Shown: positions 15,209-20,826 of the stretch, piece after piece | Position numbering within the stretch: position 1 is the stretch's first letter | Layout of the letters: every line of letters begins with the position of its first letter | Assembly (NCBI RefSeq): GCF_000327485.1 | Contig: NC_019943.1 | Location: 2,542,001-2,606,000, forward strand | Reading direction: 5' to 3' | DNA: 64,000 nt | DNA from: Methanoregula formicica SMSP | GTDB lineage: Archaea; Halobacteriota; Methanomicrobia; Methanomicrobiales; Methanospirillaceae | Translations under genes and position numbers: made by a program | The notes under the pieces: model-generated | The model's input: the letters and a program-made list of their open reading frames with translations, nothing else | Database searches by the model: none | Told to the model about the DNA's origin: nothing

Positions 15209-16108
15209 ATGGAACATATTGTATTTGGCATTGGAATTACTGCATTGACAGGAGCTCTTGCCACTGTAGCCGGTGCTGCAGAAGATACTGAATCCAACAT
15301 CGGGTCCCAGGGTGACCCGAACTCACAGGTTCAGCTCGCACCGCAGATGGGTTTCCTGCACCGCATCTTCAACAAGGCGGTTGCAGGAGAACCCCCGGCA
15401 TACGGTCTCTGGTGCTGTCTTGGCGCCGGACTCGCATGGGCATTCATGGCCATGCAGTTTAACGCGGTTCTTGCTATCGTTCTCGGTTCTGTACTCGCAG
15501 TCTTTGTACAGGGCGTTTATGCAACCACCGCTTACGTTGGCAGGACCGCGAGCCTGTCCAAGTTCGGGCAGCCGATCTACGTGGACATCCTGAAGTCCAT
15601 GACGACGGTTACCATGGCACATGCCTTTATTGCAATCTTCGCAACCGTGGCGATCTGCCAGCTGATCAACGGTGCACTGGGACACCCGTTCCCGCTGCCG
15701 CTGCTCGGTCTCATCTGGGGTATCGCACTCGGTGCAGCAGGATCTGCAACGGGCAACCCGTACTACGGTAAGGAACGCCAGTACCAGAACCAGAAGTTCG
15801 GTGCAGGTGTCCCGATCTCGGCGTCCGGTAACATCGTCCGCTATGCAGAAGCCGGCGAAAGAAACTCAATCGACAATGGCTGGTTTACCGCAAAGATCGG
15901 TGGCTCGGCATCCGGTATCTGCTTTGGCCTGATTGTCTTCCTCGAACTCTGGCGTACCATTCTCTTTGAGCAGGTAGCAGCCGGGTGGGGCGCAATCGTT
16001 GTCGGTGTCCTCATCATCCTCGTCTTCACGGTCATAGACCGCTACATCGAGGTCTGGGCACGGAAGACCTACGGACCCTACACCGAGGCAAAGGAGGCAT
16101 CCTCATGA
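15209..16108 (+). CDS. mtrE: Tetrahydromethanopterin S-methyltransferase subunit E (MtrE)
   Basis: A 299-residue integral membrane subunit of the sodium-pumping methyltransferase that moves the methyl group from H4MPT to CoM. About six hydrophobic spans are visible, with family segments QVQLAPQMGFLHRIFNKAV and GSATGNPYYGKERQYQ. It is first in the operon and has a strong GGGAGGAGG ribosome site. Its TGA overlaps the mtrD ATG. Confidence 0.97.
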   Translation: MEHIVFGIGITALTGALATVAGAAEDTESNIGSQGDPNSQVQLAPQMGFLHRIFNKAVAGEPPAYGLWCCLGAGLAWAFMAMQFNAVLAIVLGSVLAVFVQGVYATTAYVGRTASLSKFGQPIYVDILKSMTTVTMAHAFIAIFATVAICQLINGALGHPFPLPLLGLIWGIALGAAGSATGNPYYGKERQYQNQKFGAGVPISASGNIVRYAEAGERNSIDNGWFTAKIGGSASGICFGLIVFLELWRTILFEQVAAGWGAIVVGVLIILVFTVIDRYIEVWARKTYGPYTEAKEASS

Positions 16109-16941
16109 GCGCAGTTGCAGCAAAGCCCGCAGCGGGCGGCGCAATCAACGGGACTGCAATGGCAGTCGGCGTTGTGATGTTCCTCATCCTCATGGGGATC
16201 TGCTATTACATCTACCCGACCGGCCTCATGCCGCTGCTTCTTATCGTTGTCGGCGGTGTCATGATCGGTTTCGGTGTCCACTTCGTTCCTGTCGGCGGTG
16301 CACCCGCTGCAATGGGACAGGCTCCCGGTATTGCGACCGGTGTCGCGATGCTTGCAGCCGGTGGCGGTCTCGCTGGTCTCTTCGGCGGTGCATGGGCAGC
16401 AGCAGCAGGGCAGGACGCCCTCGTTGTCGTCATCACCGGCGGTATTGGCGGCGGCCTGATGATGGCCATCACCTGTATGATGGTGAACTTTGTCTATGTC
16501 TTCGGCATGGGTATCCCGGCAGCATCCGGTAAGGTCGCAAATGACCCGATCACCGGTGACAGCCAGGCAGAATACAAGTCCCAAGGTACCGAAGGACACG
16601 GCCTTCCGTTCGTCTCGTTCGTCGGCGGTGTCATCGGGGGTCTCTTCGCAGGTGCAGGCGGTACGCTCATCTACCTTGAGCTTCTCGAAGTCTACAAGGC
16701 AGCGCTCCCCGGTGTCATGCAGATCACCGCAGCACAGGTACTCCCGATTGCCGTTTCCGCAGCAGGTATGTTCGCCGTGGGCATGTTCCTCGTGAACGCA
16801 GTGCTTACCGCGTACAACATCACGGGAACCATCGAAGGACCCCACGACCCGAAGTTCAAGCGCTGGCCCCGGTCAGTCGTTGCATCCGCAGTTGCATCAG
16901 CACTCTGCGGCCTTGTGGCGATCCTGATCGTTGCACTCTGA
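16105..16941 (+). CDS. mtrD: Tetrahydromethanopterin S-methyltransferase subunit D (MtrD)
   Basis: A 278-residue membrane subunit with about six transmembrane helices, glycine/alanine-rich (AAGGGLAGLFGGAWAAAAGQ region), and the family segment VYVFGMGIPAASGKVANDPI. The ATG at 16105 overlaps the mtrE stop in an ATGA arrangement behind GGAGGC; a longer upstream extension would run into mtrE and is rejected. MtrC, D and E form the membrane sodium channel part. Confidence 0.97.
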   Translation: MSAVAAKPAAGGAINGTAMAVGVVMFLILMGICYYIYPTGLMPLLLIVVGGVMIGFGVHFVPVGGAPAAMGQAPGIATGVAMLAAGGGLAGLFGGAWAAAAGQDALVVVITGGIGGGLMMAITCMMVNFVYVFGMGIPAASGKVANDPITGDSQAEYKSQGTEGHGLPFVSFVGGVIGGLFAGAGGTLIYLELLEVYKAALPGVMQITAAQVLPIAVSAAGMFAVGMFLVNAVLTAYNITGTIEGPHDPKFKRWPRSVVASAVASALCGLVAILIVAL

Positions 16942-16951
16942 GGTGTTGAAG

Positions 16952-17800
16952 ATGACAGTAAAAGTTGAAGTAATTGAAGGTGGCATCCCGCACAATAAGA
17001 TTATGATTGCGGGTATTGTCAGCACACTCGTCTGTCTCTACCTGACCTACCTCAATGTGCTCACCTCCACCGAGATGTTCTCATTCTTCGGCGGCTTTGC
17101 GGTGATCGCGGCATTGATCTGGGGGAGTCACACCATCAAGGTACTGTGCAGTTACGGTATCGGTACCGGTGTGCCCTCGGCAGGTATGATCGCATTCGGC
17201 TCAGGTGTTATCGCTATGCTGCTTGCAACCAAGTTCGGCATCATGGCGCCGATCGTTGCAGCAGTCCTTGCAGCAGTCATCGGGTTCATCCTCGGGTATG
17301 TTTCGAACAACATCCTGAACATGAAGATCCCGGCCATGGTCCAGTCGCTCACGGAAATGGCGATTGTCGGTGCACTCTCCCTCATGGGCTTTGCAGCACT
17401 GATAACCGGCAGGTTCACCTTTGACGCCCTGACCACCGGACATGTTACTGTCCTTGGTATGTCACTTATGACACACCAGCAGTCGTTCATCGGAGGATGT
17501 CTCATCGCAGTCGCATTCCTGCTCGGTGCAATCGCCATCCAGCACCCGTTCAACGCGTGCCTTGGCCCCGGCTGGCAGCAGGACCGCATGCTCATGCTCA
17601 CTGCAGAGTGCGGTTTCCTCTCCATGATTGTGGCAGCCGTCATGTCCTTTGCCTTAATCAGCACGGGATCAGCAATCATCTCGCTCGTCATTGCAATTAT
17701 CGGCTGGGCATACACCTACAAGGAATACATGGTGCTCTCGAAGCGCGATGCAGCAGCATGGCTCGATGCAAAACCGATTCCTGAAGTGGAGGGACACTGA
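16952..17800 (+). CDS. mtrC: Tetrahydromethanopterin S-methyltransferase subunit C (MtrC)
   Basis: A 282-residue membrane subunit with about seven hydrophobic spans. The start MTVKVEVIEGGIPHNKIM and the segment HPFNACLGPGWQQDRMLML are MtrC-like. The ATG at 16952 follows GAGGTG at the mtrD end; a start at 16931 inside mtrD is rejected. The stop abuts the mtrB start. Confidence 0.96.
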   Translation: MTVKVEVIEGGIPHNKIMIAGIVSTLVCLYLTYLNVLTSTEMFSFFGGFAVIAALIWGSHTIKVLCSYGIGTGVPSAGMIAFGSGVIAMLLATKFGIMAPIVAAVLAAVIGFILGYVSNNILNMKIPAMVQSLTEMAIVGALSLMGFAALITGRFTFDALTTGHVTVLGMSLMTHQQSFIGGCLIAVAFLLGAIAIQHPFNACLGPGWQQDRMLMLTAECGFLSMIVAAVMSFALISTGSAIISLVIAIIGWAYTYKEYMVLSKRDAAAWLDAKPIPEVEGH

Positions 17801-17801
17801 C

Positions 17802-18095
17802 ATGGGATACGTACTTGTACTCCCGGAATTCGGCCTTGTAGCCGACCCCGTAATCGGTGTTGTAACCTCTGCAGGAGAATCACTCGCACCGGTCATTGAA
17901 AAGGTCGCAGTCCTTGAAGCAACCAGTGACGATCTCGTCAACATGCTCTCAGGAGAAGGCAACCTCCTGGCCTCATTCCCGAACAGGGAGAGCGGCCTTG
18001 CAATCGGTGGCACAATCACTTCGTTCTGGTACGGTCTTGCAGTCGGATTACTCATTGCCGGAATCATCGCATTCCAGATGATCAAGGTGGTCTAA
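17802..18095 (+). CDS. mtrB: Tetrahydromethanopterin S-methyltransferase subunit B (MtrB)
   Basis: A 97-residue small subunit with a soluble N-terminal part ([20 protein letters not shown]) and one C-terminal transmembrane helix ([19 protein letters not shown]). The size and operon position between mtrC and mtrA are standard. The ribosome site GGAGGG is in the last mtrC codons. Confidence 0.94.
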
Positions 18096-18096
18096 C

Positions 18097-18819
18097 ATGG
18101 CTGACAAGAAATCACCAGCAAGTGGCTGGCCGCTCATCAAGGGTGACTTCCACTCAGGCGACGCTAACAGCCCCGTTGCTGTTATCACCATGGGTTCTCA
18201 CCTCGATGAACAGGGTATCTGCGATGCCGGAGCGGCACTCTGCGGGTCCTGTAAGACCGAAAACCTCGGCCTCGAAAAAGTCATCGCCAACGTTATCGCC
18301 AACCCCAACATCAGGTTCGCCCTCCTCGTCGGTACGGAAGTGAAAGGTCACCTCTCCGCACAGACCCTCGTCGCCCTCCACAAGAACGGCGTCAAGGACG
18401 GACGCGTCGTCGGCGCTGAAGGCGCTATCCCCTTCATCGAGAACCTCAACGACACCCACATCAAGCGGTTCCAGGAACAGGTTGAGATCGTCAACATCAT
18501 GGAAACCGAAGACGTCGGCGCTGTCAAGGCTAAGATTAACGAACTCAAGGCTAAAGACCCGGGTGCGTTCGCTGCCGATCCTATGGTCGTCGAGGTCAAG
18601 GAAGCTGCAGGCGGTGCCGAAGAAGCTGGCGGGGAAGTCCGCCCGCTCTCCGGTGAGATGGCACTCATCACGGCCCGCATGAAAGTCATCGAGAAGATGG
18701 TGACAGATATCGGATACCGGGACAAGTTTGCCGCCGGGGTCTATGCAGGTAAGATCGAAGGCTTGATGATCGGTCTGATCGTCTCGTTTGCCCTGGTCGG
18801 ATTCCTTATGCTGGGGTGA
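18097..18819 (+). CDS. mtrA: Tetrahydromethanopterin S-methyltransferase subunit A (MtrA), copy 1
   Basis: A 240-residue cobamide-carrying subunit. The soluble domain (residues 1 to about 175) holds the corrinoid-binding histidine, His85 in [14 protein letters not shown], matching His84 of the Methanothermobacter protein. A linker and a C-terminal membrane helix ([17 protein letters not shown]) follow, the normal full-length layout. Its first 434 bases are repeated at 19034 with one difference. Alanine and glutamate codons in this part (GCT/GCC, GAA) look different from the GCA/GAG-rich neighbours mtrE-mtrB, hinting at separate history. Confidence 0.97.
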
Positions 18820-18824
18820 ACAAG

Positions 18825-19028
18825 ATGGCAGAAGAAGCTAAATCAACCGGACCCGTCAGGATGGTCGCAATCGATAACATGGTGGAGAACATCCGCTATA
18901 AGTCGCAGATCCTGGCAAGGACCAACAAGATCGACTCGGCAGTCACTGCATCCGGCTTAGTCGGATTTGTCGCAGGCCTGCTCACGGCACTGATCCTGAT
19001 CGTGCTGCCGGTATTATTAATGGGGTGA
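18825..19028 (+). CDS. mtrF: Tetrahydromethanopterin S-methyltransferase subunit F (MtrF)
   Basis: A 67-residue small subunit: a charged N-terminal part ([20 protein letters not shown]) and one C-terminal membrane helix ([19 protein letters not shown]). I chose the ATG at 18825; the GTG at 18816 overlaps the mtrA stop. It sits between mtrA and the A-G fusion. Confidence 0.92.
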
Positions 19029-19033
19029 AGAAG

Positions 19034-19771
19034 ATGGCTGACAAGAAATCACCAGCAAGTGGCTGGCCGCTCATCAAGGGTGACTTCCACTCAGGCGACG
19101 CTAACAGCTCCGTTGCTGTTATCACCATGGGTTCTCACCTCGATGAACAGGGTATCTGCGATGCCGGAGCGGCACTCTGCGGGTCCTGTAAGACCGAAAA
19201 CCTCGGCCTCGAAAAAGTCATCGCCAACGTTATCGCCAACCCCAACATCAGGTTCGCCCTCCTCGTCGGTACGGAAGTGAAAGGTCACCTCTCCGCACAG
19301 ACCCTCGTCGCCCTCCACAAGAACGGCGTCAAGGACGGACGCGTCGTCGGCGCTGAAGGCGCTATCCCCTTCATCGAGAACCTCAACGACACCCACATCA
19401 AGCGGTTCCAGGAACAGGTTGAGATCGTCAACATCATGGAAACCGAAGACGTCGGCGCTGTCAAGGCAAAGATCAACGAACTCAAGGCTAAAGACCCGGG
19501 TGCGTTCGCCGCCGATCCCATGGTCGTCGAGGTCAAGGAAGCTGCCGGTGGGCAGGAAGCAGGCGCCGCAAGTGCTAATCCCCAGTTCCTCGAGATCGAG
19601 AAGAGGCTCGATAAGATCGAGAAGAAACTCGAGTTCGTGGATGCGGAAGTTGCACAGCGCGTTGGACGAAAAATCGGACGGGATATCGGTATACTATACG
19701 GCCTGATGGCAGGCGTTATGGTATTTATCATGATGTTGTTCCTGTTCCAGAAATTAATGGCAATGGTATAA
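19034..19771 (+). CDS. mtrG: MtrA-MtrG fusion: second MtrA cobamide domain joined to MtrG
   Basis: A 245-residue chimera. Residues 1 to about 175 repeat MtrA copy 1 almost exactly (P26S is the change seen in the first 145 residues; His85 is kept). Instead of the MtrA membrane tail, the C-terminal 65-70 residues read [20 protein letters not shown] and [20 protein letters not shown], the MtrG signature, ending in a membrane helix. No separate mtrG exists between mtrF and mtrH, so this gene occupies the mtrG slot. If intact, the complex would carry two cobamide-binding domains per unit. The alternative is an assembly or chimera artefact, which unbroken frames and synonymous differences near 18530-18600 argue against. 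Confidence 0.92.
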
Positions 19772-19788: not shown

Positions 19789-20826
19789 ATGTTCAGATTT
19801 GAAAAAGAACAGAGTGTCTGGGACTTCAACGGCACCAAGATTGGTGGACAGCCCGGCGAGTACCCGACCGTACTGGGTGCCTCAATCTTCTACAACAAGC
19901 ATGAATGCGTACTTGATGACAAGAAAGGCACTATCGACAAGGCAAAGGCAGAAGCACTCTGGAACCGCTGTCAGGTTCTTTCTGACGCAACCGGTATTCC
20001 GCACTTCATCCAGATCATCGCGGAATATGGAGAGGCATTTGAGAGCTACTTCAACTGGTTTGACTCGATCGACAACAAGACCGCGTTCCTGATGGACTCG
20101 TCCGTGCCCACGGCACTTGCCCACGCATGCAAGTACGTGACCGAAGTCGGTCTCGCAAAGCGTGCGATCTACAACTCGATCAACGGTTCAATCCTGCCGG
20201 AGAGCATCGAGGCACTCAAGAACAGTGATGTCGACGCAGCAATCGTCCTCGCCTTCAACCCTGCTGACCCCTCGGTCGCAGGAAGAGAGAAGGTGCTCGT
20301 AGAGGGCGGTGTTGCAGGTCAGACCAAGGGTATGCTCGAGATCGCAGAGTACTGCGGTATCACCCGCCCGATTCTTGACACTGCAGCAACCCCGCTCGGC
20401 CTTGGAAGTGGCGGCGCATACCGTGAGATCCTTGCCTGCAAGGCAATCCACGGTTACCCGACCGGTGGTGCATACCACAACATGACCGTATCCTGGACCT
20501 GGCTCAAGCGCTGGAAGGGAACCTCAAAGACACCTTCCGTGCTCGCAGAGGGATACAAGGGCAAGGATACCCTGCTCCAGCAGATGTCCCACCACTACCT
20601 TGGCGGTATTGAGGGCATCAAGCAGGCTGCATGGTCCGCACCCGATATCGGCTGCAACATGATTGCCTCCACTCTCGGTGCAGACCTCATCATGTACGGA
20701 CCCATCGAGAACGTAGAAGCAATGATCACGGCACAGGCCTACACGGACATCACCGTCCTTGAGGCAACCCGCCAGCTCGGGATCGAGTGCAAATCAGAAA
20801 GCCACCCAATCTTTAAACTCATTTAA
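19789..20826 (+). CDS. mtrH: Tetrahydromethanopterin S-methyltransferase subunit H (MtrH)
   Basis: A 345-residue soluble subunit that transfers the methyl group from methyl-H4MPT to the cobamide of MtrA. It begins MFRFEKEQSVWDFNGTKIGG and includes PLGLGSGGAYREILACKAIH and SAPDIGCNMIASTLGADLIM, strong MtrH signatures with a TIM-barrel methyltransferase fold. The ribosome site GGAGGTG at 19773-19779 is ideal. It is the last gene of the operon; a T-run follows one base after its stop. Confidence 0.98.
   Translation: MFRFEKEQSVWDFNGTKIGGQPGEYPTVLGASIFYNKHECVLDDKKGTIDKAKAEALWNRCQVLSDATGIPHFIQIIAEYGEAFESYFNWFDSIDNKTAFLMDSSVPTALAHACKYVTEVGLAKRAIYNSINGSILPESIEALKNSDVDAAIVLAFNPADPSVAGREKVLVEGGVAGQTKGMLEIAEYCGITRPILDTAATPLGLGSGGAYREILACKAIHGYPTGGAYHNMTVSWTWLKRWKGTSKTPSVLAEGYKGKDTLLQQMSHHYLGGIEGIKQAAWSAPDIGCNMIASTLGADLIMYGPIENVEAMITAQAYTDITVLEATRQLGIECKSESHPIFKLI

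Follow-up and report, generated by a model that had tools for sequence, protein, structure and literature searches.

The open reading frame at 19034-19771 of the window (the whole 64,000-nucleotide stretch of the Methanoregula formicica SMSP genome that was analyzed) is almost certainly mtrA-2b, the mtrA-G fusion that is standard in the order Methanomicrobiales. It lies in the operon for Mtr, a key sodium-pumping step in methanogenesis from CO2. The fusion was described in 2015 (Wang et al., G3; PMC4632066), and a first-pass annotation of the sequence was wrong to suggest that the arrangement is undescribed, since Wang et al. had named it mtrA-2b. In that study a second mtrA in the mtr operon was fused to mtrG in Methanomicrobiales (mtrA-2b) and to mtrF in Methanococcales (mtrA-2a); mtrA-2b was present in all eight Methanomicrobiales genomes studied, two Methanoregula included, and the MtrA domains of both copies were homogenized by gene conversion, with a mean identity of 92.4% in Methanomicrobiales. 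A 2018 paper again listed mtrA among genes with long-lasting concerted evolution (PMC6053082). The gene analyzed here resembles the published mtrA-2b (PMC4632066) in domain order, in its slot between mtrF and mtrH and in the near-identity of its MtrA domain with mtrA-1, and no difference was found.

Domains of the fusion and the surrounding operon

The fusion protein was compared with domain and family models. In Pfam, the 245 residues matched MtrA (PF04208, residues 4-173, E = 5.7e-82) and MtrG (PF04210, residues 184-235, E = 2.1e-22), and with the NCBIfam equivalog models TIGR01111 (mtrA) and TIGR01149 (mtrG) the protein scored above the cut-off for both. These matches and the intact frame bear out the first-pass reading of an MtrA-MtrG fusion with His85 retained in the mtrG slot, and the assignment of the C-terminus to MtrG stands on PF04210 and on TIGR01149 above its cut-off. 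The MtrG part carries the conserved segment GRDIGILYG and aligned with solved MtrG over 53-59 residues. The cobamide-protein signature comprises His85, Glu55 and GAIPF at 109-113 (motif after PMC4915002); His85 corresponds to His84 of M. marburgensis MtrA, the cobalt ligand (PMC4915002). The linker between the two parts is Gly/Ala-rich and roughly ten residues long, a length like that of the MtrA-1 linker. Coordinates of the fusion, its parts and its neighbors are collected in Table 1.

Table 1. Features of the mtr operon and of the mtrA-2b fusion, in window coordinates
Feature	Position	Strand	Remarks
mtrE	15209-16108	+	Pfam/NCBIfam
mtrD	16105-16941	+	Pfam/NCBIfam
mtrC	16931-17800	+	Listed start TTG, later start possible
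mtrB	17802-18095	+	Pfam/NCBIfam
mtrA-1	18097-18819	+	Canonical MtrA with its own C-terminal helix; gene-conversion partner
mtrF	18825-19028	+	Pfam/NCBIfam
mtrA-2b (MtrA cobamide domain + MtrG)	19034-19771	+	245 aa, ATG to TAA, frame intact
MtrA domain of mtrA-2b, residues 1-173	19034-19552	+	His85 at codon 85; DNA near-identical to mtrA-1
Linker of mtrA-2b between MtrA domain and MtrG, about residues 174-182	19553-19579	+	Limits approximate
MtrG part of mtrA-2b, from about residue 184	19583-19768	+	Aligned with solved MtrG chains 9qtq_S and 8q3v_G
mtrH	19789-20826	+	Pfam/NCBIfam

The operon runs on a single strand in the order mtrE, D, C, B, A, F, A-G, H; mtrA-1 precedes mtrF, and the fusion is flanked by mtrF and mtrH. 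The genome, a single 2.82-Mb contig with 99.97% completeness, gave two MtrA matches and one MtrG match, all at the mtr locus. In the profile search of this whole single contig no separate mtrG was found, either between mtrF and mtrH, as had been noted at first pass and as the single MtrG match confirms, or elsewhere. A plasmid origin was rejected, as no plasmid match was returned. The canonical mtrEDCBAFGH operon (Methanothermobacter marburgensis, 8Q3V; Methanosarcina mazei, 9QTQ/9QTS) shares the eight subunit families and the gene order, but MtrG is there a chain of its own, 72-86 aa long and without a cobamide domain. The mtrA-2a of Methanococcales and Methanocella arvoryzae likewise places a second MtrA domain, homogenized with mtrA-1, on a single-helix stalk subunit (PMC4632066); it differs in its partner (MtrF), in its slot (between mtrA-1 and mtrG) and in its separate origin as given in the same paper.

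Survey across Methanomicrobiales and outside the order

An MtrG match was obtained in 127 of 150 genomes of the order, one copy apiece. Loci from the order-wide MtrG searches, together with that of the window itself, were read (89 in total), and the order mtrA-1, mtrF, mtrA-G, mtrH was found in all 60 that span mtrA-1 to mtrH. Each of the remaining 29 is interrupted by a contig end; in 27 of them MtrA sequence still precedes MtrG in the same frame, and two break off before the MtrA part. In L043, one of the 60 loci with the full span, the mtrA-1 frame is broken and the fusion frame shortened, probably through sequence errors. The junction around NPQFLEIE was conserved in the fusions displayed from across the order. 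Among named records, the nearest match to the fusion was from a Methanoregula, at 96% protein identity, and every named isolate in the match list belongs to a Methanomicrobiales genus.

The class-level sample consisted only of genomes of the same order. In the phylum-wide sample, every MtrG from outside the order among the matches listed was a small separate frame (56-143 aa). In the fusions listed in the order-wide and phylum-wide searches, the match to the MtrG profile left out its initial 4-10 positions, whereas most separate MtrG sequences matched from position 1-3. One contig, in a bin labeled 'Bacilli bacterium' (L140), encodes a relative of MtrA-MtrG over the full query length, for which reason the bin is probably contaminated by a methanogen.

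Five high-completeness genomes of the order were without an MtrG match. Four of them had no mtrH match, in the fifth mtrH was reduced to a fragment next to a contig end, and such mtrA pieces as were recovered also lay at contig ends; real absence of the fusion was therefore rejected, and the mtr locus was considered missing from these assemblies. A contig end inside mtrA-2 occurs in many drafts of the order (L012, L014, L017, L018, L034, L073-L090 and others). The near-identical mtrA repeat breaks assemblies, and mtr genes can therefore seem absent.

Near-identity of the two mtrA copies and alternative origins

Over the first 525 bases, mtrA-1 and the MtrA domain of the fusion are 98% identical in DNA (11 differences), with a longest identical run of 358 bases. 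Identity begins at the ATG and stops at about codon 174, and both flanks are at chance level. The sole amino-acid change before codon 174 is P26S, and position 85 is His in both copies. Across residues 5-165, identity of this pair was 0.99 vs. a between-species mean of 0.75. Within-genome DNA identity between mtrA-1 and the fusion averaged 0.96 (range 0.79-1.00) vs. 0.75 between species, and differences at four-fold degenerate sites were 0.10 within genomes vs. 0.58 between species. In the tree, mtrA-1 and the fusion domain were sisters in 49 of 57 species; for the remaining 8, the smallest clade with both copies held three or four sequences, and thus included copies from close relatives. A topology with one mtrA-1 clade and one mtrA-2 clade was rejected (AU P about 2e-5; 30 species, 5000 replicates); because a fast search was used for the constrained tree, it is the rejection and not the size of the likelihood gap that can be trusted. 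Most likely, an extra mtrA domain was joined once, in an ancestor of the order, to the mtrG that occupied its normal slot between mtrF and mtrH. Gene conversion has since kept the fused domain near-identical to mtrA-1, as the sequence comparisons here indicate and as published (PMC4632066). Five pairs are just 79-85% identical (L045, L049, L050, L052, L068), so homogenization has slowed or stopped in these genomes; these loci are a natural place to seek a division of labor between the two domains.

Recent duplication and fusion in each lineage, rather than one old fusion followed by gene conversion, would also yield copies that are nearest neighbors, as they are in most genomes. All families sampled share the slot and the junction sequence, and independent origin would therefore need the identical fusion many times; Wang et al. 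rejected it on the same ground (PMC4632066), and we regard it as highly improbable. The chance that the fusion is an assembly artefact across the repeated mtrA domain is negligible. The near-identical repeat does break many drafts of the order, but the 60 loci of identical order refute an artefact: the same arrangement and a conserved junction recur in the 59 loci besides that of the window, several of them from single-contig genomes, and the genome has no separate mtrG.

A further alternative is that the second MtrA domain does little and resembles mtrA-1 only through conversion, the importance of the fusion lying solely in its MtrG part. In favor of this, the two copies show strong conversion, and the solved complexes function with one MtrA domain per protomer. 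Against this, the MtrA domain is retained in every locus read, the pairs drifted to 79-85% DNA identity still have His85 and Glu55, Methanococcales evolved a parallel fusion independently, and both mtrA copies are essential according to Wang et al., who cite Sarmiento et al. 2013 (PMC4632066). His85 and Glu55 were kept in all 57 mtrA-1 sequences and all 62 fusion domains, and GAIPF was conserved save for Pro112-to-Ala in two mtrA-1 and two fusion sequences. A dead second domain was rejected on the ligand residues of every copy tested, an argument weakened by conversion, which copies these residues from mtrA-1, so that their conservation is weaker evidence than usual and for His85 and Glu55 is by itself no proof that the fusion works. 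Taken together, a domain of little use is unlikely. The presence of the fusion across the whole of a large order, and the separate origin of a comparable fusion in a second one, make a benefit to the cell probable.

Predicted place of the fusion in the Mtr complex

In the solved M. marburgensis and M. mazei complexes, the stalk is built from three copies each of the MtrA C-terminal helix, MtrB, MtrF and MtrG, all with the N-terminus in the cytoplasm; each protomer thus contributes a single helix of MtrA and a single helix of MtrG (PMC10998594, PMC12774963). MtrG pairs closely with MtrA, and a short strand at its N-terminus makes contact with the corresponding strand of MtrB. A disordered linker holds the cobamide domain, which is thought to shuttle between MtrH and MtrCDE, and three MtrH dimers (six MtrH) are bound through MtrB (PMC10998594, PMC12774963). 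Both structures come from lineages without the fusion, and the literature searched yielded no proteomic, biochemical or structural work on an Mtr complex from Methanomicrobiales.

From its sequence match with solved MtrG chains, the MtrG part would be expected to fill the normal MtrG position in the central stalk. A short flexible linker would then tether the second cobamide domain to the cytoplasmic end of that stalk, close to where MtrB meets MtrH, and by analogy with MtrA-1 this domain may carry the methyl group from MtrH to the MtrCDE sodium channel. Because the solved stalks have one MtrA and one MtrG helix per protomer, the change in stoichiometry proposed at first pass is a reasonable expectation: each complex would most likely carry up to six cobamide domains vs. 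three, half of them tethered via MtrG, and with both domains loaded there would be six cobamides to six MtrH. We lean towards this mechanism with two working domains, with modest confidence. In the M. mazei structure, MtrA is considered unlikely to gain access to one MtrH of each dimer, and the second domain might for that reason be idle or only raise the local concentration. That the two cobamide domains of a protomer serve different sites (MtrH loading and MtrCDE unloading, or one for each MtrH of a dimer) is possible but doubtful; if true, sodium pumping would be a two-arm cycle absent from the solved complexes.

MtrH itself is 345 aa long here, about 30 residues more than M. mazei MtrH, and the extra part falls at about residues 251-280. 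MtrH frames at other Methanomicrobiales loci are similar or longer (341-404 aa), and the extra length may be order-wide.
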